Notes under the pieces: model-generated
What the model saw: the letters and a program-made list of their open reading frames with translations, nothing else
Told to the model about the DNA's origin: nothing
Databases searched by the model: none
Translations under genes and position numbers: made by a program
Source of the DNA: an uncultured Rubripirellula sp.
GTDB lineage: Bacteria; Planctomycetota; Planctomycetia; Pirellulales; Pirellulaceae
Length of the DNA stretch: 64,000 bases
Assembly: GCA_938075415.1 (NCBI GenBank)
Contig: CALJHC010000012.1
Span: 62,001-126,000 of the forward strand
Direction of reading: 5' to 3'
Shown: positions 1,920 through 57,857 of the stretch, piece by piece
How the letters are laid out: each line of letters starts with the position of its first letter
How positions within the stretch are numbered: the first letter of the stretch is position 1

Positions 1920-4892
1920 ATGAAGAACTTGTTTCCCGCGTTCATGACTCCGGTGTTTACGGTTCCAGGGCTAATCGCTCTGGTGCTCCTTTCCCACGCG
2001 CTCACGTTAAATGCACAGCAAGCTGACCCGAAACCTGATTACTCATCAGAGTTACCAAGAATACCGGCAACCGAACCCTCAGAGACACTCAAGAACTTCG
2101 AGGTGGCTGATGGCTATGAGATCCAACTTGTCGCCTCGGAACCACTGGTCAGTACGCCCGTTGCGATTGAGTGGGATGCCAGAGGTGGTCTCTATGTCTG
2201 TGAAATGCGCGGTTACAGCGAAAACCGCGATGACGGTATTTCACGCGTGCGTTATCTGACCGATTCTGATCAGGATGGTGTTTATGACCAAGCGACCACC
2301 TTCGCCAGCCAACTCCTTTGGCCCACTGCGATCTTCCCCTACAAGGGAGGGTTGTTCATCGCCGACGCTCCAAATATCTACTACTGCAAAGACACCAACG
2401 GCGACGGTGTCGCCGACCTGAAGAGCATTGTGTTGACCGGCTTTGGCACCTCGAACGTCCAAGGGTTGGTCAACTCATTTCGATGGGGTTTAGACAATCG
2501 GATTCATGTTGCCTGCAGCAGTGTTGGCGGCAACATCCAACGTCCTAATGACCAACAAAAACCACTCAATGTTCGTGGGCGAGATCTATCCTTTGATCCT
2601 GACACCTACGAAATCCAACTCACTAGCGGTGGTGCGCAACATGGTATGTGCTTTGACGACTGGGGTCGCAAGTATGTTTCATCCAATAGTGATCACATCC
2701 AACAGGTCATCTACCAGGACCGTTATGTCGCTCGAAATCCCTTATTCTCTGCATCATCGGCCCGAGTGTCGATCGCTGCGGATGGTCCACAAGCTCCCGT
2801 CTTTCGAAGCAGCCCCGTCGAACCTTGGAGAATCGTTCGGACTCGTCTAAGAGTTGGCGGGGTGGTACCCGGTCCGGTCGAAGGTGGTGGTCGCGCATCA
2901 GGATATTTCACTGGTGCAACGGGTGTCACCATTTATCGCGGTGATAACTGGCCTCAAAAACATCATGGAATCGCAATCGTCGGAGATGTCGGTAGCAATC
3001 TGATTCACCGAAAGTTGCTGACACCTGATGGTGTGCAAATGATCGCAACGCGAATGGATTCAGCGAGCGAATTTGTTCGATCCAGCGATATCTGGTTTCG
3101 GCCTGCACAATTTGCCAATGCTCCGGATGGTTCGTTGCATGTGGTTGATGTCTGTCGTGAAGTTATCGAACACCCCAAAAGTCTTGCCCCGTCCATCAAA
3201 CAACATCTTGACCTCAACGCTGGACGGGACCGAGGTCGTATTTATCGTGTGATTGCCAAAAACAGTCAGCCTCGACTGAATCCAGACTTTACCAAACTGA
3301 AACCTGAAGAACTGGCGTCCAGTTTGAATCATCCCAACGCTTGGCATCGCGAAACCGCCTCCCGTTTAATCCACGAACTCCAACCGGTCTCAATTAAAAG
3401 CTCCCTTCAAGAAATGGTCACCACTGCAAGTCGACCACAAGGTCGACTGCACGCACTTTACGCCTTAGACAGTCTAGATGCACTGGCAGCTGAAGTCGTT
3501 CACGAAGCAATGAAGGATTCACACCCGCAGGTGCGAAAACATGCTCTTTGTTTGGCAGAGACAATCAACTTCAACGCAAAAATGTTACAGACTGTTGCAT
3601 CCATGGTGGAAGATGAAAATGCTGAGGTGCGTCTCCAGCTTGCGTTCAGTGTCTCCGAGTACCGTCACCCGTCGACTACCCAGATTCTAACCCGCCTCAT
3701 CACCCAGGATGTGGACTCACGCTGGATGCGTTTGGCTGTCCAAAGCTCGCTCGCCGTGGGTGCCGGTGACCTCTTCTCTCAACTGACACTTGATGAAACT
3801 TTCCGAAACCATTCTGCTGCCCAGTTTCTGGTCAGCCTCGCAAAGCAAATTGTTCGGCAAAATCGCCCAGATGAATTGCAGACCGCGATGCAGAGCTTCC
3901 AGGCACTCTCTACGTCCGCCCCACTGTTCTCACTTCCCATCCTGGGTCCTTTTCAGACCGCGTCTTCAAACCCCACTGCCTCGAAGCAACTGCAGGATCT
4001 GATTAATCAATTGACCTTGGCTGCAATCCATTTTGCAAACAACCCTGATAACGCTGTCGAAAAACGCTGTTCAACGATCGAATCGCTCTCCTACTCCAAT
4101 TGGGAAACCGTCGGCGCCACACTCATGGAACTTGCCGTTAACCAAGACTCTCCTCTGGTAAGCCAAACCGCCATCACCGTTGCCAGTAAGTTCAACTCAG
4201 GGCAATTAGCCAACTTTCTTTTGAAACAATGGGATTCCAAAACACCCGGATGGCGTAATACCGCAATCGAAGCGATTTTCTCCCGTGGCGACCGCATCAA
4301 AATACTGTTTCAGGCAATCGAGGATGGAAAAATTCAACTCAACGAGGTTCCCAGAAGTCGACTGACTTTCGCCGCTAACTCAAGAGATAAACAAGTCAAG
4401 CAACAAGCGCTAACGTTCCTTAAGGCTACAGCTGCACCCAATCGCCGGGATGTCTTGGAACGTTACACCGCAGCGTTATCTAAAAATCAAGATTTAGCTG
4501 ATGGCCGAGTCGTTTTCCGAAAACACTGCTCTGGATGCCATCGACTTGAGAATGTTGGCTACGAAATCGGACCGAATTTGGCAACCATGAAAGCCCGGGG
4601 AGCCGATGCGATGCTGGCAAACATCCTCGATCCGAATTTGGAGGTGAATCCTCAATACATCAACTATGTCTTGTTAAAAATGGATGGCAGCACTGCCACT
4701 GGAATGATCGCTGCAGAAAATGCAAATAGCATCACACTCAAGAGGGAAGAATCGGCCACTGAAACGATCCTCCGTGGTGATGTTGAGCAGATGCGAAGCT
4801 CAAGAAAATCAATCATGCCGGAGGGCTTCGAACAATCCATCACGCCGCAACAAATGGCAAACCTGGTCACCTACCTGATGCAAGTCAATTAG
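1920..4892 (+). CDS. PVC-type secreted heme-binding protein with dehydrogenase-like propeller and HEAT repeats
   Basis: About 990 residues from the ATG at 1920, chosen because it begins directly with a signal peptide (MKNLFPAF, hydrophobic segment, cleavage near LNAQQA); a TTG at 1863 and ATG at 1890 are in frame but add a useless leader. Residues about 40-430 match the Pirellula/Verrucomicrobium membrane-bound dehydrogenase-type domain, a beta-propeller with phrases such as PTAIFPYKGGLFIA, SPVEPWRIVRTR and GYFTGATGVTIYRGD. Residues about 440-850 are helical HEAT-like repeats. The C-terminal 128 residues form the PVC heme-binding domain with a CSGCH site near residues 870-874 and a later Met in IMPEGF that may be the axial ligand. 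It is likely a periplasmic c-type cytochrome dehydrogenase acting on sugars or other organics; substrate unknown. Family call is confident. Confidence 0.88.
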   Translation: MKNLFPAFMTPVFTVPGLIALVLLSHALTLNAQQADPKPDYSSELPRIPATEPSETLKNFEVADGYEIQLVASEPLVSTPVAIEWDARGGLYVCEMRGYSENRDDGISRVRYLTDSDQDGVYDQATTFASQLLWPTAIFPYKGGLFIADAPNIYYCKDTNGDGVADLKSIVLTGFGTSNVQGLVNSFRWGLDNRIHVACSSVGGNIQRPNDQQKPLNVRGRDLSFDPDTYEIQLTSGGAQHGMCFDDWGRKYVSSNSDHIQQVIYQDRYVARNPLFSASSARVSIAADGPQAPVFRSSPVEPWRIVRTRLRVGGVVPGPVEGGGRASGYFTGATGVTIYRGDNWPQKHHGIAIVGDVGSNLIHRKLLTPDGVQMIATRMDSASEFVRSSDIWFRPAQFANAPDGSLHVVDVCREVIEHPKSLAPSIKQHLDLNAGRDRGRIYRVIAKNSQPRLNPDFTKLKPEELASSLNHPNAWHRETASRLIHELQPVSIKSSLQEMVTTASRPQGRLHALYALDSLDALAAEVVHEAMKDSHPQVRKHALCLAETINFNAKMLQTVASMVEDENAEVRLQLAFSVSEYRHPSTTQILTRLITQDVDSRWMRLAVQSSLAVGAGDLFSQLTLDETFRNHSAAQFLVSLAKQIVRQNRPDELQTAMQSFQALSTSAPLFSLPILGPFQTASSNPTASKQLQDLINQLTLAAIHFANNPDNAVEKRCSTIESLSYSNWETVGATLMELAVNQDSPLVSQTAITVASKFNSGQLANFLLKQWDSKTPGWRNTAIEAIFSRGDRIKILFQAIEDGKIQLNEVPRSRLTFAANSRDKQVKQQALTFLKATAAPNRRDVLERYTAALSKNQDLADGRVVFRKHCSGCHRLENVGYEIGPNLATMKARGADAMLANILDPNLEVNPQYINYVLLKMDGSTATGMIAAENANSITLKREESATETILRGDVEQMRSSRKSIMPEGFEQSITPQQMANLVTYLMQVN

Positions 4893-5261
4893 TCCTCCAT
4901 GTGTTTCTGTTCAATCACTCACTATCTGTGACCTCTCGCAGAGCGACATGGCAAGAGCCTCTAGCCGGATTAACACAATCGTCGCAAGAGGTGCCATCTC
5001 TTCGTTGTCGCTGGCCAACCACAGCATCGATTTCGGGGAGGCTTGAAGACGCAGAGCCCTGCCCAATAGCAGATCGTCTTTTGCAATTGAATCTGATCAG
5101 CCATACGCTTTCGCTACGCTCTTTTCCAACCTGCTTGGATCACCGTGCAATTCAAACGGAAACCTTCAGACTTATCCTGAGAGGCAGTACGGCTGATGAA
5201 ACAAAGTGATGTCATTTTCCGAACGCGATTATCAACCTCAATAGATTTCCTTACGCCTAGC

Positions 5262-5307
5262 AGGAATAGGGTCGGCGCCCTTGGCAAACGGATTAGACCC
5301 CATTCCT
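5262..5307. repeat. REP-like imperfect inverted repeat
   Basis: AGGAATAGGGTC (5262-5273) pairs with GACCCCATTCCT (5296-5307) with 11 of 12 matches around a 22-nt loop. The arms resemble the AATGGGGTC/GACCCCATT phrase seen in many bacterial dispersed REP-type elements. No transposase is nearby. It could equally act as a transcript-end structure for the upstream + strand gene, though no T-run follows. Confidence 0.45.
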
Positions 5308-5718
5308 ATTTAAAGACACAAACGCAGTTCTTTAGCAAGAGTTATCCATCGAGACCAAGCTAAGATCAACTCAATGTCCACCCCGCCTTTTTGGATTACC
5401 GTCAAGTCAGACCATTACCCCGGAAAGCCGATCGACCAACATAAATGGCTTTGCATCGTGTCCCCGTGCTTGCCAGACTAGCAACCCAAGCTTTCCCAAC
5501 TCGCGCCAAAAGTTGCAACAAAACGTTGCAACTAAACGTTGGACTAAAAATGGAACAGTGGGATTACCATTTTGTCGAGGCAGGACCACCAGCTTGGGGT
5601 GAACGACAAAAAGGGTCTAGCTGTGTTACCTGTTCCGAGGCTGGGTGCAATCGGCCATCGCGGCGGCACTATCTGGCCTTGCGTGCGATGAGGAATCAGT
5701 TTTGGGCAGCCACAAACC

Positions 5719-5746
5719 AAAAAAAACCCACGCCTTTGACGTGGGT
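5719..5746 (-). terminator. Rho-independent terminator of the methionine-rich protein gene
   Basis: Read on the minus strand, ACCCACG, a 7-nt loop and CGTGGGT are followed at once by a run of eight T. It lies about 50 bp past the stop codon of the minus-strand gene, the expected place. This is the clearest intrinsic terminator in the window. Confidence 0.8.
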
Positions 5747-5798
5747 GTTTCGTTCAATCTTTTCAAGTGAACTGAATTCTCTTGGTTGCATCAAACAC

Positions 5799-42923: not shown

Positions 42924-45158
42924 TCAAATCAACCCCGCGGCTTTTCGGAGGATCCAGAAAAGTCCGAGCAGGAAAACGAGAATTCCGGCCGCAAGAGGAT
43001 GGGCCCAAATCTGAAATCGTCGCTCCACCGAACTGGGCATTGGTAACTCAGAAATCGCCTCAAGCAGAGAATTGACTTCATTCGGTGCTACGAATTCACC
43101 TCGAGACACTCGGGAGATTTCTTCCAAAACCTCCGGCCGAGCCGGTCGACCAACGGGCTCGGAGAGATCACCCTGAACAAAGAAGGTTGACTGCAACTCG
43201 GAGGAAGTCCCGCTGCAAGACAAGATAACCCGATGCTGACCGGGCTCGTTTGCGGAGTATCGACCCTGAAAAACACCCCAACGCTCACCCTCGCTCCGCA
43301 TCTGCACATTGTCGGAAACACCAGATGGCGAAGTGATCAGAGCGCTAACGAGTCCGTCCTGAAGTGGCTCACCTGAATCATCCATCACATGCGCATTGAA
43401 ATTGATCGTCTGTCGAATTCGGGGTTGATCCGGCGTGTAGAACAGACGCATGGTTTCGCCCTTGGCCATATTCCGTTGGTATGCCATCCACCGAACCACT
43501 TGCCCCCAGAACCGATAGTGATATTTGTCCTCGACGCCCTTGCGCCACCGCCACGCTCCGTCGGTCCCCATGAAAAGTACTTTACCAGCACCATACGGAC
43601 GCGTGACCAATAGCGGCAGACGCCCTGATTGGTTGCTCATGTCTTGATGAACCGCCAACACTTCCGAACCCGCCTTGGATCGAACAACCGGAGCATACCA
43701 CTGAAACCCAGGAAGTCCCTCCCAAACAACTTCGTTCTCCTCAGCGGTATCAGCAAGCTTTGTTAGTAAGCTATTGCGGCCTCGTTGTGTCAACTCAAAA
43801 TGCCCCGGCACTCTCGCCCCCCAGCCCCCGGGCTGATCAGCATCCAGCACAACCGGATAAAGCTCGTTGAGACCAGTCTCCAGGAGACTGAATTGCCGGC
43901 CCTGAAAGCCAGGCATCAAGACAAGACCACTTGCCTGAAACTCCACAAGCCCTTTGACCAAGTCGCATTGTTCAGCCGTTAGCTGGCCATCATCAAGACC
44001 CACATCGCCCAAAAAGACAACGTCGTACTCGGAAAGATCCTCAAGAGCTTCGGGAAACACCTTAATGTAATCTTGAGAACCACCACCAACTTTTTCGAGC
44101 CTGGGGTGAAACAACAAACAAGAAACCTCCACTCCGGGATCGCGTGACAACGCATTCCGTAAATAACGGTATTCCCAACGCGGTAGCGACTCAACCACTA
44201 ATACCTTTAGTTGCTCCTGACGGATTGCAATCGGAGCAACCAGCTCATTATTGGTGTCGATCTTCTCAGCCGAATTAACCGGCAACTTCACCGTCAGCTC
44301 GTAATCACCAATTTCCTCCGGTGTCCAAAGAATTGAATCAAAGGTTCGCCCCATCGGAGCGATGCGAATATCCTTGGATATCGTCTCACCGTTACTAAAG
44401 CTAACTTGTGCGTTGACAACGATCTCTCGGGGCAGTGAACTGTCGATGGAAAGTGGGATTCGAATCGGTTTACCAACAGCCCCGAAGGTTGGAACATCCG
44501 CACTAACTAATTCGACATCTGGCAATTTGGTGACGCTACCTATCGCCACGGTGAACACAGGCACATCTCGAGTTCGCATCCTGGAAGCGATTTCCACTGG
44601 TGGTTCGCCTTCATTCCAATCGCCATCAGAGATCATCACGACCGCGGCCAGAGAATCCCTTTCCTCCGTCGCATCCACCAACGGTTGGGAAAGATTGGTA
44701 AAACCGGCTTCAACCAATGCATCGCCGTCATCGCTGTCCCCACCCTTGGGCGATGAACCGAGGGGCTCAATCAGTACATTGAAACGATCAATTAGCCGGC
44801 CCCATGTTGCTTGATCAACAAATTCAGAAACTGCTAGTTCTCTTGAGACCGCTTGCCCATCTCCTGCTGATGCTGTCAAAACGTCAACAGTCTGCATGCT
44901 TGGTGAATCGTCATAGATCACAACTACACTCGGCTTCACCTCTGGATCATACTCCGCGGTCCACTCGGGTTGATTGAGCAAGAGAACCACCAAACCGATA
45001 ATCAACAGCCTCAGCAGCTCAAGCCTCGCAACCGCCTTGGACAATCCACTACGCCGCCAGGACATCACTCCAAGAATCGTCGCCGCAACCATGGCAACGA
45101 AGGACAAAGCAAGTGACCCAATTGAGGCACTAAAATCGATGCTCTGGTTTTCCATCAT
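42924..45158 (-). CDS. Membrane-anchored VWA-like protein with amidotransferase-like domain
   Basis: 744 residues, third gene of the operon. Two N-terminal membrane helices (SLALSFVAMVAATILGVM and LLRLLIIGLVVLLLN) are followed by a von Willebrand A-like domain whose MIDAS is DDSPSM (DxSxS). A glutamine amidotransferase-like domain comes next (VLVVESLPRWEYRYLRNAL ... LGDVGLDDGQLTAEQ). After it there is a beta-rich part and a last membrane helix near the end (PLAAGILVFLLGLFWIL). The arrangement is that of the large membrane proteins that go with BatA/DUF58 and MoxR. Its start overlaps the preceding gene's stop by four bases. I infer a role in chaperoning or assembling a periplasmic complex. Confidence 0.8.
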   Translation of the reverse strand: MMENQSIDFSASIGSLALSFVAMVAATILGVMSWRRSGLSKAVARLELLRLLIIGLVVLLLNQPEWTAEYDPEVKPSVVVIYDDSPSMQTVDVLTASAGDGQAVSRELAVSEFVDQATWGRLIDRFNVLIEPLGSSPKGGDSDDGDALVEAGFTNLSQPLVDATEERDSLAAVVMISDGDWNEGEPPVEIASRMRTRDVPVFTVAIGSVTKLPDVELVSADVPTFGAVGKPIRIPLSIDSSLPREIVVNAQVSFSNGETISKDIRIAPMGRTFDSILWTPEEIGDYELTVKLPVNSAEKIDTNNELVAPIAIRQEQLKVLVVESLPRWEYRYLRNALSRDPGVEVSCLLFHPRLEKVGGGSQDYIKVFPEALEDLSEYDVVFLGDVGLDDGQLTAEQCDLVKGLVEFQASGLVLMPGFQGRQFSLLETGLNELYPVVLDADQPGGWGARVPGHFELTQRGRNSLLTKLADTAEENEVVWEGLPGFQWYAPVVRSKAGSEVLAVHQDMSNQSGRLPLLVTRPYGAGKVLFMGTDGAWRWRKGVEDKYHYRFWGQVVRWMAYQRNMAKGETMRLFYTPDQPRIRQTINFNAHVMDDSGEPLQDGLVSALITSPSGVSDNVQMRSEGERWGVFQGRYSANEPGQHRVILSCSGTSSELQSTFFVQGDLSEPVGRPARPEVLEEISRVSRGEFVAPNEVNSLLEAISELPMPSSVERRFQIWAHPLAAGILVFLLGLFWILRKAAGLI

Positions 45159-47182
45159 CTGGCCACCCCCGAAGCGAAGGTGCGTTCAGTCTGCACGCGG
45201 CGTCGTGGCAATGACAGAGCTGATTCGCTCAACAACATCAACAGCATCAGCACTAGAAATAATCGCCAGATTTCCTGAATCAAAGAACGTTCTGATCCAA
45301 CCTCCTCCTCGACAACACTGAAATCCAAATTTGCGAACAAACCGGTGATCTGCTGTTCGCTTACCGTGGTGAGATCATCCTCTTCACTAGTACGATTGAT
45401 CGCCGACAGTCGCTCGCCCGACTGGTAAACACCAGCATGCGACGAAAACTCAGTGGATAAAATGTCACCTGAACCGGCAATCTGTCGCCACATGCTTTCC
45501 GTTTCACCAGCCTCTCGCCATTCCCAGATACGCGACAATCCCTGAGTCGTTGCGCCGAACTGCCTCGCAACACCAAGAGCCTGAGCGCCTTGCTCCAATG
45601 CTCGATGAAGCATCGCGAATAGCACAACACCGCTGCTGGCCAAATTTGAATCCGCAGGATCAACGGTGGAGGTGAAAAAATAAATGGCACGATTCTCGTC
45701 AAGAGACTTCGCCAATAAAGGCTGCCCATTACTGAGAGTTGCAAGGGACGCAAACTGACCCTCCAATTCACACCACCTTGCAATCCTCAATTCACCCAGA
45801 GGTAACACATCGCCACTCGCGGTATTAGAGATCAGATCTCGATCGAAATTCCAACTCGAAACCGACAAAGGTTCATCAATCCAACTTCCCCACGTAACGG
45901 AACCAAACGCTGTCCCCGAAGAATCTTCTCCGGGTAAAAAAAGAAGAACTCCACCTCCCTTGCAAAACGACTCAAGCCATTGCTCCTCTGCACCACCGAC
46001 GCTGGGTAGGGATGACTGCCAGATAACCAAAGACAGATCGCTAAATTCCAAGCCTGCCAAACGCTCAGGCCTGATCACTTCCACTTCTGCAGTGATCGCC
46101 GGTTCATTTGCCACGGAAAGCGCAAACTCTATTGGCCGCGCAACCTCGGGTTCGTCGGTTACTATCAAACTCTTACGGACAGGTTCCTGCTCGTAGGTAA
46201 AATAAAAATCGTTATCCTGTGAATTCGTATCAGGCGGTAGCGACAGCCGACCCCAGCCCGATTTTGACACCGTATCCAACGGCACTTCATAATCGGTAAT
46301 CTCCAGTGTCGAACCAGCGAGTTCAAACTCAATTTCAGTAACTGCCCCGTTGATCTCTAGCTGTAAAGCAAGAAGATCAACTCGCTCATTGGGGTCTAAC
46401 TTGTCGATTCCAAAACTCATTAGCAGCTTCGCATTATCGGCAGACCCCACTCGCCGAACCGCCCCGCCGCGAATTCTGTAGTTCCCGGATTTTCCCTCCA
46501 GAAAACTAACTGAATGGAACCGAAGCGTTTGAGCGTGACTCGCTAAGGACTCAGTAACTGCCTTCCAACGCCCGCTAGAAGGTTCCCAGTCGGCAATTCG
46601 CCCGTCACTGCAAATCCAAACCTCCGTACGACTCGGCTGATTATTTGAGATGTACTCCTCAGCAACCTCCAGCATTCTCGGTAAGTCAGCCGTCGCACTC
46701 GCGGGTTGAACTTCCGAGACCTCCAATAAATCATCCGGCGATGTCAGCTCGATGGAACGCAGCGACACACTATCAATTAACACATAGTGATCCGCCTCCA
46801 GCTTCCCAAGACTTTCCGCCAACCTTCGCAAACCAACCTCCAGTTTTGAACGGCCACCGATCCCTGTCTGACTCATACTTGGTGAGCGGTCCACTAGAAT
46901 CAGAACGCTGTCAACACGTCCTCCTGCGGCAACACCAAGCCAGCCACTGGAAAGGGGCCGACTGATCGCGAATAGCAGTCCCGCGATAGCCAGGGTTCTG
47001 GCGGCAAGAATCAGCCACTGGCGGATCCGCGCATAACCCCTGGACAACTTGGTCGCAGCAAGCAGGAACGTCATCGCAGCCCATTGAACCGTCTGAAATC
47101 GCCTCTGATGGATCAGATGAATCAATATCGGTAACGCGATTAACGGCAGTCCGAACAAAATCAGTGGCTGTAGAAAACTCAT
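45155..47182 (-). CDS. BatA/VWA membrane protein
   Basis: 675 residues. The N-terminus is a classic BatA (aerotolerance) domain: MSFLQPLILFGLPLIALPILIHLI is a membrane helix followed by HQRRFQTVQWAAMTFLL and a second helix LAARTLAIAGLLFAIS. A VWA domain follows with MIDAS DRSPSM, then a beta-rich middle and one more membrane segment at the end (LFLVLMLLMLLSESALSL). Such proteins work with a MoxR AAA+ ATPase and a DUF58 protein. Its ATG overlaps the DUF58 gene's stop and its own stop overlaps the next start by four bases, so the three are translationally coupled. The MoxR gene normally expected ahead of DUF58 is not in this window. Confidence 0.87.
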   Translation of the reverse strand: MSFLQPLILFGLPLIALPILIHLIHQRRFQTVQWAAMTFLLAATKLSRGYARIRQWLILAARTLAIAGLLFAISRPLSSGWLGVAAGGRVDSVLILVDRSPSMSQTGIGGRSKLEVGLRRLAESLGKLEADHYVLIDSVSLRSIELTSPDDLLEVSEVQPASATADLPRMLEVAEEYISNNQPSRTEVWICSDGRIADWEPSSGRWKAVTESLASHAQTLRFHSVSFLEGKSGNYRIRGGAVRRVGSADNAKLLMSFGIDKLDPNERVDLLALQLEINGAVTEIEFELAGSTLEITDYEVPLDTVSKSGWGRLSLPPDTNSQDNDFYFTYEQEPVRKSLIVTDEPEVARPIEFALSVANEPAITAEVEVIRPERLAGLEFSDLSLVIWQSSLPSVGGAEEQWLESFCKGGGVLLFLPGEDSSGTAFGSVTWGSWIDEPLSVSSWNFDRDLISNTASGDVLPLGELRIARWCELEGQFASLATLSNGQPLLAKSLDENRAIYFFTSTVDPADSNLASSGVVLFAMLHRALEQGAQALGVARQFGATTQGLSRIWEWREAGETESMWRQIAGSGDILSTEFSSHAGVYQSGERLSAINRTSEEDDLTTVSEQQITGLFANLDFSVVEEEVGSERSLIQEIWRLFLVLMLLMLLSESALSLPRRRVQTERTFASGVAR

Positions 47183-48090
47183 CCGCTTCCCCTGCCCATT
47201 GCACGACCTGCGAGGAATCGAAACAGCACCGCCTCGTAATCATCGCTAATTGACACCCTCTGATAGTCGACCGCTGATTCCAGAGAAATCTTACGGATGT
47301 TCTCCAGATAGCTCTGGAGCACCTGCTGATAGCGATCGATCACCTCACTGGGGTCGGCAAAAACAGCCTCATCTCCCTCCATATCCACAAAACGCGTTGG
47401 TCTTGAGAAATCAAAATCAAGCTCTTTTTCATCAAGCAGATGAAATAACGCCACGTCGTGTTTGCGAAAACGTAAATGGTCAAGCGCGCCACGCAGTGAA
47501 TCCGTCTCAACGAATAAATCAGAGATAACAACAACCAAGGCACGCTGGGCAACGGTTTCCGCAAACTCATGCAGCCCATCAATCAATAACGTCTCACCCT
47601 TCGCCTCAACCACTTCCAATAAGTCATTCAGCCCACGCAGATGTGACGGAGTTCGTCGTGGTGGCAAGTTGGGAACCGACTGATGCCCGGTCGTGGTCAA
47701 ACCCACCGCATCCCCCTGCTGAACGGCAAGGTAGGCGAGCGTCCCGGCGAGCCGCCTGGCATATTCCAGCTTGGTGACATCGGTTGAACCAAAATTCATG
47801 GAACCGCTCGTGTCAACGACGAGGCAAAGTCGAAGATTCGTATCTGCCTCAAACTCCTTCACATAGAAACGATCGGTGCGTCCGAATGCGCGCCAATCGA
47901 GCCTGCGTAGGTCGTCACCCGGAAGGTAACGACGGTATTCGGCAAACTCGACACTCGCTCCGCGATGTGGGCTAGCATGCATTCCGGATACCCCACCAAC
48001 CATTGCTCGACGGGCAAACAATGGCATCGATGCCAAACGCGATAACGCATCAGGATCCAAGAATCGACGGTTACCACGATCTCCCAACAC
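47179..48090 (-). CDS. DUF58 domain-containing protein
   Basis: 303 residues starting at a GTG at 48090, with AAGGAAA about 12 bp ahead. The DUF58 signature is exact: PHRGASVEFAEYRRYLPGDD is followed by LRRLDWRAFGRTDRFYVKEFEADT, and then a VWA fold with MIDAS DTSGSM. It is soluble, as is usual for this family. It is first in the DUF58 / BatA-VWA / VWA operon, whose members overlap by four bases. Known homologues act with MoxR ATPases in maturation of metalloenzymes or in envelope stress; this is inference for this protein. The 0.7-kb region ahead of it contains two repeat arrays instead of a MoxR gene. Confidence 0.9.
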   Translation of the reverse strand: MLGDRGNRRFLDPDALSRLASMPLFARRAMVGGVSGMHASPHRGASVEFAEYRRYLPGDDLRRLDWRAFGRTDRFYVKEFEADTNLRLCLVVDTSGSMNFGSTDVTKLEYARRLAGTLAYLAVQQGDAVGLTTTGHQSVPNLPPRRTPSHLRGLNDLLEVVEAKGETLLIDGLHEFAETVAQRALVVVISDLFVETDSLRGALDHLRFRKHDVALFHLLDEKELDFDFSRPTRFVDMEGDEAVFADPSEVIDRYQQVLQSYLENIRKISLESAVDYQRVSISDDYEAVLFRFLAGRAMGRGSG

Positions 48091-48240
48091 GTTTTGTTAT
48101 TTCCTTCGCTATCTGATTGTCTAATTGAAGATACGTTGTGAGGCCGGCCAAACCTTACGCGTGCCGAAAATTTGAACTAAACGTCGTTTCAATGACAATC
48201 TCCTTCACAACCCCACACCCGCAGAAACCATTCCGGCCAT

Positions 48241-48311
48241 GCGAACAGGTCCTGCCATGCGAACGGGGCCTGCCATGAAACGGGTCCTGCCATGCGAACG
48301 AGGCTGTGCCA
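48241..48311. repeat. 18-bp tandem array (GCGAACGGGGCCTGCCAT)
   Basis: Four units of 17-18 bp with consensus GCGAACGGGKCCTGCCAT; the third has lost one base and the last is degenerate. It lies ahead of the DUF58 operon and is noncoding. Confidence 0.8.
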
Positions 48312-48370
48312 CAACACCAAGCAACCGGAACCACTTTGGTCAGCCCACCCGGCATCTATCGGGTGGCGCC

Positions 48371-48482
48371 AAACATCACTCACCAAACATCACTCACCAA
48401 ACATCACTCACCAGACATCTCTCACCAATCATCATTCACCAAACATCACTCACCAAACATCTCTCACCAATCATCACTCACC
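48371..48482. repeat. Eight-copy 14-bp tandem array (AAACATCACTCACC)
   Basis: Eight contiguous 14-bp units. Units 1, 2, 3 and 6 are identical, and the others differ at one to three bases. The strand shows a strong C/A bias and contains no G except one. It is noncoding. Confidence 0.9.
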
Positions 48483-48779
48483 TCCGATCTACACCATCTG
48501 CAATCTTCAACGGATCGCCGTTCAGTGTTCGAACTCACGACTCAGGGGCAGTCGTGACGTCCTCTGCCAGACGCAACGCCCCAAAAACGAAGCGAAAAAC
48601 GGTCGACGCTGACCACATTCTTGCTTCACCTACCTCAATTGTCGATCCTGCGAATCTCTTCCATTTTCAAGTAACCAAAACAAGTCTTGTCTGCTCGTCA
48701 AATCGGCGATTGCCGACGTTTGGCAATGATGCTGTTCTTCCGCGTTGATCAGCAGGCTCACGATGGCAAACAAGGGCTA

Positions 48780-51700
48780 CTACTTCTCAAAATCGAGCAA
48801 TTCAATCGCACTACGCGTCAAGCTATTCGGCCCGAATTCGGCGAAAAAAGCATCTCCAGGATCGATGGTTCGTCCGTCATCGAAACCAAGAAAAGTTCCG
48901 TTCCAACCGGAAAACTGCGAAAACACTGAATCAATCGAAGTATCCCACCAACTGTGATTGGGTCCTGGAACCAACCGACCGGGAATGCGAGAGGTCTCCC
49001 ATCCTGTCAACACGAGATCTTTGCCCGAACTGTCAATTCGATCCCTCCCCAGTTGGGCAACTTGAGTCGAATCAGTTTGCTGATTGGGCAACCATTCCGA
49101 TTCAATGATCTGCTCAGAAGACGCTGACACCAGTTGATTAATCACAGTCAATGCATCCAACGCCGTAATCGTGTCGTCGCCATTGACATCAAAATACAGA
49201 TTGGGCCAGACAGAAACGCTGAGCGGATCGCTCAATAACCCGGTTTCGTCGCTGTAACTACCATTTACCAATTCATTAATAACCCGCAACGCATCAACAG
49301 CCGTAGATGATCCGCTATTGTCAACATCAGAGGGCAGCAGCAGATTTTGCCATGGGGTTGGGGCATCAAGATAAATCTCCGCTGCCGGCGAGGCATCAGT
49401 TGACACCAACGACCGGTAGAATTGAGACTCGACGACCTGCGCCGTTCCCATCTCCCATCCATCCGCTGGTTGAAATTGCCAATCGACCAATTCCTGGTTT
49501 CCAGCTTCAATCCGGCCAGTATCCGAAATCGGTATCTTCAAATTGCCACCAGCGTGTTGAATGTACGTGCGATTCAACGCAAACCACTCTTCTGCACCAA
49601 GATCAAACACTAAATCATTTTCGTTACGACTAACACCTGCTATCAAATTGCTCCCTCGCAGTTCAATCAGAACAGTGTCAGCAATTCGGTCATAACTCGA
49701 ACGGCCAACGCCCACCTCAAAAATGCCAGTTGAGGTTGCATTGTCCTCCGTGGTTTCAAGATCGGCGTCCAGACCACCATCCTCGACGGTCAGGGTGATC
49801 TGACTGACCCCAGTCTGTCCAAGCACTGGGGTTACGAGAAATTCTGCAGCGTTACCAGTCACCAACGAACTTTCTGGTGTTACGGAAATGACCGCCGGGT
49901 TACCGACCGACGCAGAGATTCTCAACGGCTGCTGCTCGCCACCTCCCGCGTCAATCTGTTCAACCGCGATGACTTGAGTTCCAGCATTTTGTTCCAAAGC
50001 GAGGTTGAAAGGAATCAGCAGAACAGGGGCATCATTGACCGGCAAAACAGTTAACTCAAACGATCCATTCCCTAATGCGTTGTCGCCGGTCGTTGCCAGA
50101 TCTCCATCAGGACCGGGATCAGTCATTTGGATGCTGACAAAAGTCGAACCGCTTTGATCAGCCGCTGGGACCAAAGTCAACTCCCAACGCCCATCAACCA
50201 AGTTCACCGACACACCGTCAACATCAAACAGACCTGGGTCCGAAACCGAAACCGTGACATCGAGCAATTCATTGGAATGATCAGGATCAAAAACGCCAAG
50301 ATCCATGCTCTGGATCCTTGAATCTTCATTGATTGATTGATCGCTCAAACCAACAAGTCTCGGTGCATCATTGACCCCTTCAATGGTCAGCGTCGCTCGA
50401 CCACTGGATTGATTGCCGAATCCGTCACTAATCACATAATCAAAATAGTCATCCAACGTCTGCCCTGCAGCCAGGTCATCGTACTGCCCCCTTGAATCGT
50501 ATTCGAAGCCCCCCAAAGGACCGACCGCAGCAACGCGTTGTCGATTCGTCGTCAAAGAACCAGTGGTAACCAATGAGAAATCAGCCGCGATTTCAGGGAC
50601 GAGGTCATTAGAAAGCAACCCAGCATCAGCCACTTGCAACAAATCATCTTCGGTCAGTGCGTACTGATCATCGATCGCAGCGAATACCAACGACCGAACT
50701 CGCTCAAGTTCGGTCCGAATCGCTTCCGCCGCGTTATTGGTCACGAGCGATTCGGAATAGAGTTGCAAATCGACGTAGTTAAGCACACCATTGGCATCAA
50801 AATCAGCGGCTGGATTAAAATCAACTTGGTTGCCGACGATGATCTGCTCAAACATCGCCACATCGGCTAATTCAATGATCCCATTAAAATCAAGATCTCC
50901 AAGTCCGCCGCCTATGATCGTGGAGGCAAAGAGCCCGGGAACACGCTGGACATTCACGTTACCGGTTCGCTCGTAGGATACGATCGTCGCCACATTATTC
51001 CCGTGCGGCACACCGTTGAACCCGTAGATAAATTGGTCACGATCAATCTGCCTTGCACGATTGCTATCTCCCACCAAGGCAAGTATTTCCGGATCAGTCA
51101 AGGTTGCGGACAGGTTCAAGAAAACATGAACACTGTTCGCCGTTTGATCCAACGACTCAACCACCAAATTTCGATTCTCGTTGATACCCTCAACGTAGGG
51201 CCTGAAACTAGCGACACCTGAGTTCGGAGGTAGCCGGTCAACATAGATCGTTTCTTTAAAGTCTGAGAAAACTTCCGGTCCACCGTTGGGTCGGTGGCGG
51301 AACACGCGAGCCTGAATAAAGTGAATTCCCTCTGCCAATCCAGTCAAATCGACCTCTTGGCGAAAAACGCCACTTCCTCTCGCACCCTCGAGGCCACCAG
51401 GTCCAACCAGCGGGCTCGATAAATCAGAAAACAACTCGTATCCATAGGTCGCCTCACCTGGCGTGACATAATCAACCGTCCCGTTACCGTTAACATCGAC
51501 GCCATTGTCAATCCTCAGCATCGCCGCGTCACCGTCAGCAGCTGTGTCCCTGAGTTGACCCGTACCAGGCAGATACACCGGCTGAGTCGCCAGATTGACG
51601 TCAATCTTGTCACCGGTAACGACCTGGATGTCCGTTAATCGGGTTACACCGTTGGAGTAATCCGTCGATTCGGCTACGCCACCAGCAAGGGTGGATGCAA

Positions 51701-53492
51701 CCCCCGTCAACTCGATTCCACTGGCGGACACAGGTGTTGCCAAACCGTAAATGACAAAACCAGATCCGTGCCATTGCCCATCCGCATTCGAATTCCTCGG
51801 AATACGAATGGTAACGGTCTGTGAAGCTGACACCTCCACGAAGTCCGCGAGATCATCATAGGGATCAATGCTCGGGTCGGACGCATTGCCGGTCAACTCA
51901 ACCAATCGGGTTCCCGGGGCAAATGCCACTTGCACGGTGCGTTCATCGAAACCGGCATCTCCGCGATTGGACAGACCGACGATCGCAGAATTCTCTCGTT
52001 CAAAAACATAGAGTCCTTCGTTACCAATCAACCTTTGATAAAAGTCACCCCGACCATGTGAATGACGAATGGAAACGAGTTTCTCGAGCGTGGCTCCATA
52101 GACGCCACCAAGCGAGTCACCACGTCCCGCCTTTGGGAAATCACGCTGATCCCCGAACTCCTTGCCATTGAAATAAATGACCGTGTTACCGGGGTACATT
52201 AACGAAAACGCATGAGCCACGTTACCCAAACTCGTTGGACCGAACTCATCATGACTTCGAACAAAAAGCACACCAGCACTGCCGTTGTGCAGCCCATCGT
52301 CATGCAAGTCCAACAGTGAATCTCGAACGTTAAACCAAGCCGATGCGGTTCCAGGGCTGGATAGATTATCCCGCATTGCGAAAAAGGCTGAAAAATCTAA
52401 GACATCCCGATTCCCGCCGATGCGCCCCGGGTCGTTGGGATCAATATTTTTCTTCACGTAAGACAGCAGCGTGTCTCGATTACCATCAAAAACTTCGCTG
52501 TAAGAAAACACGTTTTCAGTGGTCCCGTCCAACAACAAACGCGGATTAGATCGGTACACGGCACGGTCAAGGTAGTCCATGACGAAACCATCGAAGTGCT
52601 TGGCGGCGTCAACGCGAAAACCATCAACACCGACCACCTCCACCATCCACTGCATGTAACGCATCATGTATCCAAGCGCGTTTTCGGCAACGGCGTCACC
52701 TGACAGAGGATCCAAACTGTTGAAGGAATAAACAGGTATGTCCGATTCATTAGTGACCGGATCGAATAAAAAGCGGGCCGGTCCGTCACGATCCGGATAA
52801 AACCTCGAATTCTCCGACGCGGGTTGATTGGCTAACCGACCAAAGGGATCCGTGATCGTCCCCGATGGAATATTCCGGTTATCGGCCGCGTCAACAGGAT
52901 GACGTACCAGTTCATGATTGGTGGAGTGATCCACGTCCACCAAGCCCGATAGCCTTCCCTCCAGATCACCAGACAGAAAACCCGAGTGGAAATCACCATC
53001 GATCGCATTGTCCAGCGTGATGGCTAACCCAGGGTAGCCTCCCGACGAAACGAACCCATCGGTCGTCATGTCAGAAAATCCTGCATGATTCAAAACTGCA
53101 TCAACATGCAGCGACGCCGAAGCACGGTCTAACACCTTGGACAGCTGCTTTAATCCCGTTTCCGTTCCGTAAAGGGTCCCATGATCAGGTGAGCCGAGAT
53201 CAAACCGATCGTAGACATCGTACCCGACTGACTGGTCACCCGAATCTGCTCGGCCCGGCGGGGGAAGCCAGAGCGAACCATAACCCAATTCGAAAAGATC
53301 CGGAACACGCTCCTCGATCGTATCGAACGAACTCTCAAACCACTGCAGGATCGGCGGCGCCGACGCGGCGGCCAACAAATTTCGCTGCTCAAGTCTCTCG
53401 ATTTTCGATTGACGCGATTTTGGCGAACAGGTTTGATAGCGACGACGCCTCTGAAGACGTCTTTTTCTTGAACCGTACAACGCTTGACCCAC
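48780..53492 (-). CDS. Giant secreted alpha-amylase with LEPR-XLL tag, cadherin-like repeats and two dockerin-like modules
   Basis: About 1570 residues from a GTG at 53492 (a TTG at 53522 is in frame; neither has a clear ribosome site). The N-terminus is basic and carries IERLEQRNLLAA (31-42), the LEPR-XLL-type tag of large planctomycete exported proteins. The GH13 domain (about 45-540) has all sequence regions: DAVLNH (131-136), GFRVDAAKHF with nucleophile Asp295, EVFDG with Glu333, and RSHDEFG with His414-Asp415. A beta-rich region follows. Two dockerin-like calcium modules (DLDFNGIIELAD/DFDANGVLNYVD near 865-917; DVDNSGSSTAVD/DVNGDDTITALD near 1385-1460) surround VCBS/tandem-95-like repeats (DDQYALTEDDL, VNDAPRLVG, VNDAPVLLI). 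The C-terminal 110 residues form a closing domain. The enzyme likely hydrolyses starch or glycogen at the cell surface. Confidence 0.88.
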   Translation of the reverse strand: MGQALYGSRKRRLQRRRRYQTCSPKSRQSKIERLEQRNLLAAASAPPILQWFESSFDTIEERVPDLFELGYGSLWLPPPGRADSGDQSVGYDVYDRFDLGSPDHGTLYGTETGLKQLSKVLDRASASLHVDAVLNHAGFSDMTTDGFVSSGGYPGLAITLDNAIDGDFHSGFLSGDLEGRLSGLVDVDHSTNHELVRHPVDAADNRNIPSGTITDPFGRLANQPASENSRFYPDRDGPARFLFDPVTNESDIPVYSFNSLDPLSGDAVAENALGYMMRYMQWMVEVVGVDGFRVDAAKHFDGFVMDYLDRAVYRSNPRLLLDGTTENVFSYSEVFDGNRDTLLSYVKKNIDPNDPGRIGGNRDVLDFSAFFAMRDNLSSPGTASAWFNVRDSLLDLHDDGLHNGSAGVLFVRSHDEFGPTSLGNVAHAFSLMYPGNTVIYFNGKEFGDQRDFPKAGRGDSLGGVYGATLEKLVSIRHSHGRGDFYQRLIGNEGLYVFERENSAIVGLSNRGDAGFDERTVQVAFAPGTRLVELTGNASDPSIDPYDDLADFVEVSASQTVTIRIPRNSNADGQWHGSGFVIYGLATPVSASGIELTGVASTLAGGVAESTDYSNGVTRLTDIQVVTGDKIDVNLATQPVYLPGTGQLRDTAADGDAAMLRIDNGVDVNGNGTVDYVTPGEATYGYELFSDLSSPLVGPGGLEGARGSGVFRQEVDLTGLAEGIHFIQARVFRHRPNGGPEVFSDFKETIYVDRLPPNSGVASFRPYVEGINENRNLVVESLDQTANSVHVFLNLSATLTDPEILALVGDSNRARQIDRDQFIYGFNGVPHGNNVATIVSYERTGNVNVQRVPGLFASTIIGGGLGDLDFNGIIELADVAMFEQIIVGNQVDFNPAADFDANGVLNYVDLQLYSESLVTNNAAEAIRTELERVRSLVFAAIDDQYALTEDDLLQVADAGLLSNDLVPEIAADFSLVTTGSLTTNRQRVAAVGPLGGFEYDSRGQYDDLAAGQTLDDYFDYVISDGFGNQSSGRATLTIEGVNDAPRLVGLSDQSINEDSRIQSMDLGVFDPDHSNELLDVTVSVSDPGLFDVDGVSVNLVDGRWELTLVPAADQSGSTFVSIQMTDPGPDGDLATTGDNALGNGSFELTVLPVNDAPVLLIPFNLALEQNAGTQVIAVEQIDAGGGEQQPLRISASVGNPAVISVTPESSLVTGNAAEFLVTPVLGQTGVSQITLTVEDGGLDADLETTEDNATSTGIFEVGVGRSSYDRIADTVLIELRGSNLIAGVSRNENDLVFDLGAEEWFALNRTYIQHAGGNLKIPISDTGRIEAGNQELVDWQFQPADGWEMGTAQVVESQFYRSLVSTDASPAAEIYLDAPTPWQNLLLPSDVDNSGSSTAVDALRVINELVNGSYSDETGLLSDPLSVSVWPNLYFDVNGDDTITALDALTVINQLVSASSEQIIESEWLPNQQTDSTQVAQLGRDRIDSSGKDLVLTGWETSRIPGRLVPGPNHSWWDTSIDSVFSQFSGWNGTFLGFDDGRTIDPGDAFFAEFGPNSLTRSAIELLDFEK

Positions 53493-53749
53493 AGCAAACG
53501 GAAAAAACAAGGCAAGGCCCAAGAGACAGGGCCGATTCTCACGGAGATTCTACTAAGTTTTCTCTCTCGGCATGCTAATTATTTGAGAACTCGCCTCAAT
53601 GCGAATGGCCAAAATGACCGCCAGAGAGGTTTCACCAACCACTTTTTTGCCATTCCCTCACAACAGCTCGCCGGACGAAGTATCGGAGAGCACGCGGATC
53701 ACCCACTAAAATCGGCCACGCTGCTAACGACAAACTAACCAGCACGGGT

Positions 53750-54538
53750 TCAAACGGCTTGCACTTCATTCCACTGGATCAAATCTCGATACGCCACTCC
53801 CTCGCCGCCGAAAAGGTCCAAAGAACTGCCGACCGTCACGTCAACCAATCCGTCACTGGCGTCTTGGATCAATTGCAGGTCACGCATCGAAGCGACACCT
53901 CCCGCATAGGTCATTGGTAATTTCCCCCAACCACCCATGCGCTCCACAAGCGCAACGTCAATTCCCTGACAGAGTCCCTCGACATCAGCTGCGTGTATTA
54001 GAAATTCATCTGCGTAACTCGCCAGCCGATCAAGCCAATCCGTGGTGATTTCAACCTCTGTCAATGTTTGCCAACGATTCATTGCAACACACCATCGCGT
54101 CGGCCCCTCTTTTGTCCGCTGCTGCCGACAGCTTAGATCTAGAACGATTCTCTGCTTACCCACCTTCGAGACCAGTTGATCTAAACGCTCGAAGCACAGC
54201 CGACCCTTCGAATCAAACAACCATGACGTGACAATGACATGACTTGCACCTGCCTCAATCCATTCCATCGCATTTGCAACATCAACTCCACCACCGATCT
54301 GCAACCCACCGGGGAAGGCAGCCAGAGCATCCCTCGCGGCGATTTCATTGCCGGGGCCAAGTTTGATGACGTGCCCCCCCGTCAAACTGTCCTGTCGGTA
54401 TTGATTCGCATAGTGTTGGGCCGAAAGATCCGCGACGAAATTTTCTTTGGGTCCCGGCCCCTCATCCAGCAAAGTCCCACCAACAATCTGCTTGACCCTA
54501 CCATCGTGTAAATCGATGCACGGTCGGAATTTTGTCAT
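53750..54538 (-). CDS. hisA: Eukaryotic-type phosphoribosylformimino-5-aminoimidazole carboxamide ribotide isomerase (HIS6/HisA)
   Basis: 262 residues from the ATG at 54538, preferred over TTG 54565 because GGAG lies about 11 bp ahead. It catalyses the Amadori rearrangement of ProFAR to PRFAR, step four of histidine synthesis. The order of motifs matches yeast/plant HIS6 rather than bacterial HisA: RPCIDLHDGRVKQIVGGTL with catalytic Asp9, GGHVIKLGPGNEIAARDAL, the gap-rich LQIGGGVDVANAMEWI, VIVTSWLFDSKG, RIVLDLSCRQQ, MNRWQTLTE, EFLIHAADVEGLCQGID, and GSSLDLFGG near the end. Length also fits the eukaryotic type. No other his gene is nearby. It is transcribed on its own toward the amylase. Confidence 0.93.
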   Translation of the reverse strand: MTKFRPCIDLHDGRVKQIVGGTLLDEGPGPKENFVADLSAQHYANQYRQDSLTGGHVIKLGPGNEIAARDALAAFPGGLQIGGGVDVANAMEWIEAGASHVIVTSWLFDSKGRLCFERLDQLVSKVGKQRIVLDLSCRQQRTKEGPTRWCVAMNRWQTLTEVEITTDWLDRLASYADEFLIHAADVEGLCQGIDVALVERMGGWGKLPMTYAGGVASMRDLQLIQDASDGLVDVTVGSSLDLFGGEGVAYRDLIQWNEVQAV

Positions 54539-55472: not shown

Positions 55473-57857
55473 ATGGAAACCCCTGAAAAACTCGATCCGC
55501 AACTCACCGAATTACTCGGAGCTCTTCGACAGCGAGTACGTCGGCACGTCGTTGTTGATTCGACTCTCGTGTTGATTGGACTGATATTGGCCGCGTTTTG
55601 GGCTGGATTCCTGCTCGACTACCTACCCGTTTGGTTCGGTGGAACCGAAATGCCGCGACTGGCTCGTGGCATTCTGGCATTGGCCGTGACTGCCGGAACC
55701 GTTCTGACAATCTTAAAGATGCTGGTGGGTCGTTTGCGACGTCCGCTCCCTGCAGACAGTCTGGCGTTGCTCGTCGAACGGCACCATCCAGAAATCGGAG
55801 GTCGCTTGACGACCGCAGTTCAATTGATGCGTCCAGGGCGTAAAATCGACGATCACTCCTCTCTTCTGCTGGCACAGGTTCATCAGCAGGTCAAGCGACT
55901 CGTCGATCAAGTTGACCCGCAAAGAATTTTTCGACGCGAACCGTTGATCAAGAAATCTTTAATCGCTGGGCCGCTTCTGGCCGCCACGCTCGCCTTCATC
56001 ATCATTAGCCCAGAGGCTTTTGGCTTGGCAACCCGCCGCCTCACATTGCTATCAGATGCACCTTGGCCGCGGCGAGCTGATCTGGAAATGGTGGGTGTTG
56101 AATTACCGGCCGTCTTAGCGTCCGAACTGGACGAGGATCAATTTGATCTTGTCAAATTTGAAAACAAAAAACTTCGTTTACCGATCGGCAGCAGCAGTAA
56201 ATTACGTTTGCGAGCTAGGGCCGAAGGCGCGGAACTGCCGAACGTCTGCACCGTGCGATATGTGACCCAATCTGGTACTCGCGGCCAGTCGAACATGCGT
56301 CGCATTGGCCGTCTTGTTGACGGTTACCAGTACTTTGTGCTTGATGGCCCCCCGTTAACCGACCTCGCGGAATCCATCACTCTGAATGTTCGCGGTTTGG
56401 ACGACCGACTGGATGACTACCAAATCGAGGCTGTTCCACCCCCATCGATCACCAACACCTCGCTCTCGGTCCGTTACCCAGATTATCTAAAGACGAGCGG
56501 TCCGAATCAGATCGATTGGAACCGAACCTACCAGACGGGGATTCGAGTTGAAGAGGGAAGTGATGTGGAAATGACCATCACAAGCACGGTTGAACTGGGA
56601 AACGTTGACCTCTGGATGCAAAACGCGACTTCAGACGGTGAATCCCAAACCATGGATCTATCCGATGACGGTTTGAAAGCATCGATTCGGATTTCCGAAA
56701 TCTCGTCGCCTGTAACAATTAGCCTAGTACCGAAAGATCGGACAGGCATCTCTGCACAAGCACCTTACCGGTACTTCGTTGGTGTAATTCAAGACGAACC
56801 ACCACAGATGGAACTCAGGCTTGAGGGAATTGGGAATGCTGTGACTGCCAATGCCAAAATCCCAATGAAAACGTTTGTCACTGATGATTACGGGGTTGAG
56901 AAATCCGTGGTAAACATTTCAACAGATACCGAAATCAGCGACCAAGAATCTGAGTCCAACGGATCCGACAATCCCAGCGGCGACGACCAAGCGACACCAA
57001 CTAGAAAAACAAATCAGCAAGAAAGTATCGGAGCCAACCTGAAACTTCCAGAACGCGAAGGCGAATCGAAACTTACCGCCGACCTTCGCGATCTCGTTGC
57101 CTCAGAAGCGTTACCGGAATTGAAGCCCGGTGATGCCATCAGCCTGATCGGTGAATCCAACGATCGTTACAACCTCAGTGGCAACCACCTCACTCGTACA
57201 GAAGTCTATCGACTGCCAATCGTTACCCCCGAAACTTTATTGGCATTGATGGAACGGCGAGAACTGGCACTCAGGTCCAGGCTAGAGCAAACGCTGGATG
57301 AAACGCGAAAGCTCAGAGATTCGTTGGACCAACTTGCTCGCACAGGATTCAGTGCCGCAGTTGATGAAGTCCAAAATGACAACGACGCAGAGACTCGAAC
57401 CTTGCAGGTTCGGCGTCTACGAATCCAACAATCTGACCTGCAAGCCAACAAGACTGCTGAAGAACTCCTAGGAATCGCCGCGTCACTCGACGACATGCTT
57501 TTCGAAATGCAAAATAACCGAATTGACTCCGTTGATCGTCAGGAGCGAATAGGATCTGGCGTCAGGGATCCAATCATCAAAGCCGTCTCAGAACCACTGG
57601 CTCGACTGCAAAAACAGCTAGCAGAGCTTGAAGCCGAGGCAAATCAGCCAAATTTGGCAATTCAAACCGCAAAAGAATCCGTTGCCAGTTGCGATGCGCT
57701 TCTTCTCCAATTGACGGCGATTCTAGACAAAATGCTTGATCTGGAGAGCTACAATGAAATACTTGATCTGGTTCGAGAACTGATCGGGGATCAAGATAAA
57801 TTGATGGAAGACACCCAGTCTGAACGCAAGAAGAAAGTCTTGGACCTTTTTAAGTAA
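55473..57857 (+). CDS. Large DUF4175-like membrane protein
   Basis: 794 residues. Membrane helices are seen at about 27-48 (VVVDSTLVLIGLILAAFWAGF), 64-88 (GILALAVTAGTVLTILKM) and 165-185 (LLAATLAFIIIS). A basic RLRRPLPADSLALLVERHHPEIGGRLTTAV stretch between them (given in parts) is typical of the planctomycete family. The long periplasmic part has immunoglobulin-like strands (VRYPDYLKTSGP, TFVTDDYGVEKSV) and a final coiled coil (about 585-780). It starts a three-gene plus-strand run with the two exported proteins downstream. The same gene type accompanies DUF58/VWA genes in related bacteria, so a shared function is likely. The exact role is unknown. Confidence 0.77.
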   Translation: METPEKLDPQLTELLGALRQRVRRHVVVDSTLVLIGLILAAFWAGFLLDYLPVWFGGTEMPRLARGILALAVTAGTVLTILKMLVGRLRRPLPADSLALLVERHHPEIGGRLTTAVQLMRPGRKIDDHSSLLLAQVHQQVKRLVDQVDPQRIFRREPLIKKSLIAGPLLAATLAFIIISPEAFGLATRRLTLLSDAPWPRRADLEMVGVELPAVLASELDEDQFDLVKFENKKLRLPIGSSSKLRLRARAEGAELPNVCTVRYVTQSGTRGQSNMRRIGRLVDGYQYFVLDGPPLTDLAESITLNVRGLDDRLDDYQIEAVPPPSITNTSLSVRYPDYLKTSGPNQIDWNRTYQTGIRVEEGSDVEMTITSTVELGNVDLWMQNATSDGESQTMDLSDDGLKASIRISEISSPVTISLVPKDRTGISAQAPYRYFVGVIQDEPPQMELRLEGIGNAVTANAKIPMKTFVTDDYGVEKSVVNISTDTEISDQESESNGSDNPSGDDQATPTRKTNQQESIGANLKLPEREGESKLTADLRDLVASEALPELKPGDAISLIGESNDRYNLSGNHLTRTEVYRLPIVTPETLLALMERRELALRSRLEQTLDETRKLRDSLDQLARTGFSAAVDEVQNDNDAETRTLQVRRLRIQQSDLQANKTAEELLGIAASLDDMLFEMQNNRIDSVDRQERIGSGVRDPIIKAVSEPLARLQKQLAELEAEANQPNLAIQTAKESVASCDALLLQLTAILDKMLDLESYNEILDLVRELIGDQDKLMEDTQSERKKKVLDLFK

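Follow-up and report, generated by a model that had tools for sequence, protein, structure and literature searches.

The HIS6/HISN3 family isomerizes ProFAR to PRFAR, an Amadori rearrangement, within a (beta/alpha)8 barrel. The closest described members are yeast HIS6 (PDB 2agk) and Medicago HISN3 (9fcf and 9fcg, D57N mutant chains), and the family has a curated NCBIfam model, TIGR02129 (hisA_euk). Bacterial HisA, represented by TIGR00007, shares superfamily PF00977 with it and presumably carries out the same reaction. The notes to TIGR02129 reportedly explain a case in Fibrobacter as transfer from plants, and a 2024 paper on Medicago HISN3 is said to discuss a non-cyanobacterial origin. A Roseburia paper reports hisA apart from the remaining his operons and next to glutamine synthetase, and a figure legend there names HisA by a phrase also used in TIGR02129 (PMC7478625). 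Among the open-access papers listed in a search, no title or abstract start described eukaryote-type HisA in bacteria, which is no proof of absence. Given the curated hisA_euk model, the Roseburia wording and the reported Fibrobacter note, bacterial occurrence of the class is probably not new in itself.

Here, we analyze a hisA gene in the window, by which we mean the whole 64,000-nucleotide stretch, taken from a genome of 5.96 Mb (87.4% complete, 52 contigs). The features that concern us are as follows.

53750..54538, minus strand: eukaryote-type hisA (HIS6/HISN3 class), from the open reading frame, TIGR02129, and the AlphaFold2 model with Foldseek
54512..54514, minus strand: Asp9 codon, catalytic Asp of beta-strand 1 (row alignment)
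54137..54139, minus strand: Asp134 codon, beta-strand 5, eukaryote-type signature (row alignment)
54131..54133, minus strand: Ser136 codon, where bacterial HisA and HisF have the beta-5 Asp (row alignment)
53978..53980, minus strand: Glu187 codon, equivalent in position to Asp176 in Salmonella HisA (row alignment)
55473..57857, plus strand: divergent neighbor (794 aa) that matches no Pfam or NCBIfam family, kept across the genus
48780..53522, minus strand: alpha-amylase-like and dockerin-domain protein, downstream neighbor (Pfam)

The hisA frame runs from an ATG at 54538 to a stop ending at 53750 and encodes 262 aa plus stop; its translation contains, in the order cited, all seven peptides on which the initial annotation had based its assignment to the HIS6/HISN3 branch. 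That assignment, as opposed to ordinary bacterial HisA, is borne out by the family models: the protein scores 365.7 bits with TIGR02129 (cut-off 229.3; E = 1.4e-109), covering the profile over its full length (1-255 of 255), versus 60.7 bits with TIGR00007, below the cut-off of 228.95. With TIGR00735 (HisF) the score is 29.3 bits (cut-off 294.55), and with PF00977 it is 93.7 bits. A HisF or HisF2 misread as HisA is ruled out by the three family scores. The PDB search returned yeast 2agk (269.7 bits) and Medicago 9fcf (256.3 bits), the sole further match at E <= 0.01 being a weak one to Campylobacter HisA (4gj1, 30.4 bits); these scores, together with the TIGR02129 E value, exclude chance similarity. 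The AlphaFold2 model of the window HisA (pLDDT 93.0), made from its sequence together with those of 20 bacterial or IMG/VR loci, places 9fcg, 9fcf and 2agk at the top of the Foldseek ranking (TM 0.83 to 0.94) and has the (beta/alpha)8 fold of the 2agk/9fcf type. The window gene is thus a further member of an already known, curated family. A scan near the gene gave promoter-like and terminator-like sites in numbers of 1 and 6, against 1.4 and 3.2 in shuffled sequence.

The window HisA has 54% sequence identity with yeast HIS6 and 51% with Medicago HISN3, and it has the same fold and the same active-site signature (D9, D134, S136, E187) as both. It differs from the Medicago chain in a shorter stretch near residue 25, and from both eukaryotic proteins in its bacterial source and in two small insertions around residues 139-140 and 146-148. 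Identity to bacterial HisA is 20% in the profile alignment. Residues shared by yeast and plant are present throughout (H11, K16, Q17, D134, S136, C137, H182, E187, Y211, S238, and FGG at 243-245), and at the places of His11, Lys16, His182 and Glu187 the 18 bacterial HisA sequences mostly have Arg/Lys, Val, Thr and Asp, respectively.

Asp9, presumably the catalytic Asp known from the family, occurs in all groups and is matched by Asp in 76/77 bacterial eukaryote-type rows (the other has a gap), 18/18 bacterial HisA and 6/6 HisF; the Asn at this place in the Medicago 9fcf chain we take, from the entry title, as the engineered D57N. On beta-strand 5, all 77 eukaryote-type rows and both eukaryotes have Asp at the Asp134 place, which is Gly in 18/18 bacterial HisA and Ala in the three sequences of intermediate type described below. 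Two residues along, the beta-5 Asp (Asp129 of Salmonella HisA) is absent from the window HisA: Ser136 stands there, as Ser does in 77/77 eukaryote-type rows and 2/2 eukaryotes, and Asp is found in 18/18 bacterial HisA, 6/6 HisF and 3/3 intermediates. The Glu187 place holds Glu in 77/77 rows, 2/2 eukaryotes and 3/3 intermediates and Asp in 18/18 bacterial HisA (the Salmonella numbers D176 and Asp129 were counted on the chain; D176 also appears in PDB mutant titles). The register is the same in the MAFFT alignment and when profiles of bacterial HisA, the intermediates and HisF are aligned, which appears to rule out an alignment slip behind Asp134/Ser136. Judged from these alignments, Asp134 may take over the role of the lost beta-5 Asp, and Asp9 with, by position, Asp134 and Glu187 would make up the acidic active-site residues.

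The intermediates, L047, L048 and L049, come from the window's phylum. They score 151 to 167 bits with TIGR02129, are 34 to 36% identical to the window protein, and share with it Cys7, Gln17, His182, Glu187 and Tyr211. Unlike the window HisA, they keep the bacterial beta-5 Asp and Lys238 and lack Asp134. L047 reaches 97.7 bits with TIGR00007, and the three genomes (G017, G036 and G004) have no HisA over the bacterial cut-off. This form is probably a separate class without a model of its own.

Database naming treats the enzyme as eukaryotic HisA, and TIGR02129 is named eukaryotic, whereas in the samples searched the class is common in bacteria and spread over Planctomycetota, Verrucomicrobiota and Clostridia. 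In the window's phylum, the eukaryote type is found over the TIGR02129 cut-off in 19/294 genomes and the bacterial type over the TIGR00007 cut-off in 98/294; the 177 with neither type over cut-off include some with a bacterial HisA just below. Within the window's family the corresponding counts are 7, 100 and 12 of 119. The phylum of an Akkermansia MAG (G423) is much richer in the class: the eukaryote type is over cut-off in 101/240 genomes, the bacterial type is present in 124/240 at E <= 1e-45 (118 of them over cut-off), and 15/240 have neither at the thresholds used. The class of Pseudobutyrivibrio ruminis (G418), where TIGR02129 was the only model run, yielded 15/291. Among 14 named control genomes, TIGR02129 matched 11 at E <= 1e-5 and none over cut-off, and TIGR00007 was over cut-off in 11.

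No genome has both HisA types in any of the three samples (phylum, family and the G423 phylum). Joint occurrence was counted in both phylum samples, and in the family all seven genomes are listed without a bacterial match. If the two types were independent, zero overlap would have probabilities of 3e-4, 9e-7 and 6e-52 (294, 119 and 240 genomes, respectively), values that are too small because the genomes are related; the pattern is nonetheless plain. Each of 17 genomes behind eukaryote-type loci carries the eukaryote type plus a second PF00977 match of 281 to 293 bits, which we take for HisF from its score. Six Pseudobutyrivibrio genomes have extra barrels (191 to 195 bits), and both of the two that were checked are HisF2/WbuZ-like, just under the cut-offs. 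One genome, G357, which shares a genus with G390, has neither HisA type. In the G423 phylum, contig 42 of G582 carries two eukaryote-type hisA matches of equal score about 1.2 kb apart (48040-50726).

Scanning IMG/VR with the window protein as query found no relative, and a scan with a mixed alignment found two contigs. On the first, of 14 kb (L176), a eukaryote-type hisA at 5001-5777 lies amid small ORFs, four of them without Pfam match, at a locus of 35.7% GC. On the second, of 72 kb (L177), the gene adjoins GroEL, with an M18 aminopeptidase near (992-5750); judging by its genes, this contig looks bacterial rather than viral. An M18 aminopeptidase also flanks the eukaryote-type hisA of Pseudobutyrivibrio ruminis, with an LL-diaminopimelate aminotransferase on the other side (L020, 4645-8024).

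The initial annotation had also described the gene as standing alone, and a Pfam scan of 9 of the 32 window ORFs of at least 200 aa (42.9 to 63.7 kb) indeed finds no his gene among these neighbors. A his gene on its own is nothing exceptional here, because those located are scattered over contigs: hisE and hisH on contig 21 and hisF on contig 23. Profile searches for an additional, ordinary hisA, a check proposed in that annotation, found none in the 87% complete genome. PF00977 has two other long matches, the contig 23 HisF (383.5 bits with TIGR00735) and a contig 10 protein nearest hisAF_rel. The latter is an open frame of 275 aa related to HisA and HisF (100553-101233), and its 78.1 bits lie below the hisAF_rel cut-off of 179.85. 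At this completeness, an ordinary hisA might have escaped the assembly by chance; what is seen in other genomes argues against this.

In sister genomes of the family the vacated place can be seen. The order in G121 is hisH, ordinary hisA and an EF-G gene, whereas G360, a genome with the eukaryote type, has an EF-G gene directly after hisH and no hisA between (in both, the EF-G frame is truncated at the end of the locus and scores below full-length cut-offs). By eye, G297 is arranged as G360, and G205 has hisH, hisA, one further ORF and then an EF-G-like start. The hisH of the window genome is flanked by hisE upstream and trpD downstream, both on the other strand, and no hisA appears in the 1.5 kb of sequence to either side. 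As the two types are mutually exclusive and the hisA place is vacated in sister genomes, the gene appears to be a HisA replacement that is long established in the genus and was passed between bacteria.

The gene's surroundings bear on its age. The divergent 794-aa neighbor also lies beside hisA in G336, G382, G406 and three Rhodopirellula MAG loci (L013-L015) that we count to the window genus; within genus g1 it is shared by four genomes, the window's included. GC3 of hisA is 0.536, against a mean of 0.532 (standard deviation, 0.016) for 20 of the window's longer ORFs. Given this conserved neighbor and a GC3 like that of the window ORFs, the eukaryote-type hisA is old in the window genus. The HisA of G336 is identical to that of L011, and in genera g214 and g273 the surroundings of hisA are different. 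On the downstream side, G406 alone of the loci compared has a homologue of the amylase-like neighbor in this position. The neighbor's frame of 1580 aa in the window reads LEQRNLLAA near the N-terminus, which we take to resemble a motif of planctomycete exported proteins. Downstream of this frame, the minus strand carries genes encoding BatA and DUF58/VWA domains (42924-48090), and a tRNA scan found no tRNA gene in the window.

Phylogenetic trees were generated to place the gene among HisA and HIS6 sequences, with yeast and plant (Medicago) as the only eukaryotes in all of them. Tree 1 included as outgroups 18 of the 47 fetched bacterial HisA loci (L058-L087, L094-L098, L164-L175) plus 6 HisF. 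The G423 phylum, a pool of 102 places over cut-off in 101 genomes, contributed 20 matches to tree 1 and 20 more to tree 2; all 15 eukaryote-type loci of the G418 class were given in, with identical rows used once. Tree 2 holds the ingroup (99 rows) without three near-identical Pseudobutyrivibrio rows, and tree 3 is built on another alignment of 94 rows that leaves out the intermediates and two IMG/VR rows.

In tree 1, 77 bacterial or IMG/VR eukaryote-type rows form a 79-row clade with yeast and plant (support 100/98), and the 18 bacterial HisA stand apart (100/98), with a long-branch warning from the tool; the window gene therefore groups with yeast and plant, as the initial annotation expected, and outside ordinary HisA. 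The three intermediates are sister to the eukaryote-type clade (100/95). All three trees put the window gene into a bacterial clade, which in tree 2 (98/97) and tree 3 (85/93) consists of 18 rows of Pirellulaceae and Verrucomicrobiota. Support inside this clade is modest: the window genus is not one clade in free trees 1 and 2, forms one in tree 3 (78/85), and scores better when held together in the tree 1 test. An AU test rejects (p 0.0025) a single origin of the ten Pirellulaceae rows, which comprise L011, L013-L015 and six rows from family f1, so that by the tree replacement by eukaryote-type hisA happened at least twice in this family.

The two eukaryotes do not fall together. The plant groups with two G418-class sequences (90/75 in tree 2, 99/83 in tree 3), and in tree 2 these lie inside a 42-row clade (99/95). 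Yeast adjoins L028 in tree 2 (93/66), is placed alike in tree 3 (94/71), and has no resolved position within a 44-row clade in tree 1. Yeast and plant as one clade are rejected in tree 2 (AU p 7e-6) and tree 3 (p 0.002) and not in tree 1 with its distant outgroups (p 0.14). Bacterial members as a single clade apart from the eukaryotes are likewise rejected (AU p 0.007 and 0.0002). Holding the window genus (window, G406, G382, L011 and L013-L015) together with yeast is not rejected in tree 2 (AU p 0.11), and the deep branching order is weak for that reason.

Taken together, these data suggest, with a probability of roughly 85%, that the window gene is a ProFAR isomerase of the HIS6/HISN3 class that replaces HisA and belongs to a class exchanged between bacteria. 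It would perform the HisA step of histidine synthesis in place of the ordinary bacterial enzyme, class members having presumably moved between bacteria and displaced the resident hisA. The window copy would most likely come from, or be shared with, Verrucomicrobiota, and not directly from a eukaryote; the direction from Verrucomicrobiota to planctomycetes is likewise an interpretation. A direct and fairly recent transfer of HIS6 from a fungus or alga into the planctomycete lineage, which would suit the clear class membership and the AU result with yeast, is by comparison highly improbable. The closest sequences are bacterial (69% identity for G406, 63% and downward from the next bacterial row); yeast HIS6, at 53.9%, is exceeded by 27 of the 43 other bacterial rows, lies above 15 and is level with one, and so equals the more distant bacterial members, and the plant follows at 51%. 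The position inside a bacterial clade in three trees, the neighbor common to the genus and a GC3 equal to that of the window ORFs also argue against such a transfer. Of the initial annotation's proposal of transfer from or to a eukaryote, a recent direct exchange is accordingly not indicated, since the gene sits in the Pirellulaceae and Verrucomicrobiota clade, and a link with yeast stays compatible with the AU test. Foreign DNA in the assembly, eukaryotic or other, could account for an odd gene among 52 contigs, and no positive sign of it was found; with the neighbor shared by three further members of the genus and GC and GC3 fitting the surroundings, contamination is rejected as close to negligible. 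That the gene is a paralogue with another function, the HisA step falling to another barrel such as the contig 10 protein, draws on the presence of this third PF00977 protein and is even less probable than recent transfer: the TIGR02129 score is at equivalog level, the active-site signature matches the yeast and plant enzymes, ordinary HisA is mutually exclusive with the class in three samples, and the contig 10 protein misses its own family's cut-off.

More weight belongs to the possibility that the class is eukaryotic in origin, with a few old entries into bacteria, later bacterial spread and the window gene as a late descendant. The patchiness of the class in bacteria would fit, as would the reported Fibrobacter case and the rumen Pseudobutyrivibrio locus, where the aminotransferase beside hisA is of plant type (TIGR03542, 597 bits), another enzyme named after plants. 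We nevertheless consider it unlikely: a bacterial-only clade is rejected, a result that two eukaryotes do not make decisive, and the nearest outgroup found, the intermediates, is bacterial. Both directions of the first transfer are possible with two eukaryotes sampled, and we favor bacteria to eukaryotes. The suggestion of an ancestral source of the eukaryotic gene thus remains viable for the entire family and not for this gene in particular. More tentatively, at somewhat less than even odds, eukaryotic ProFAR isomerase may be a bacterial HisA class, centered on Verrucomicrobiota, Planctomycetota and Clostridia, that fungi and plants acquired separately from bacteria. On this reading the intermediate class would bridge to ordinary HisA, and the active site would have been rearranged, the strand-5 Asp moving two residues along and Asp176 becoming Glu.

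The open-access literature searched yielded no account of how broad the class is, of the exclusion between the two types, of the vacated hisA place or of the intermediate class, and the interesting part, in our view, is the family's bacterial spread together with its active-site signature. The histidine pathway has been called a promising target for herbicides and antifungals (abstract of PMC5585171). If eukaryotes borrowed the bacterial class, perhaps repeatedly, the origin of this step of fungal and plant histidine synthesis becomes testable with public genomes. The one-or-the-other pattern in three samples offers a clean natural case of a core enzyme replaced by a distant relative.
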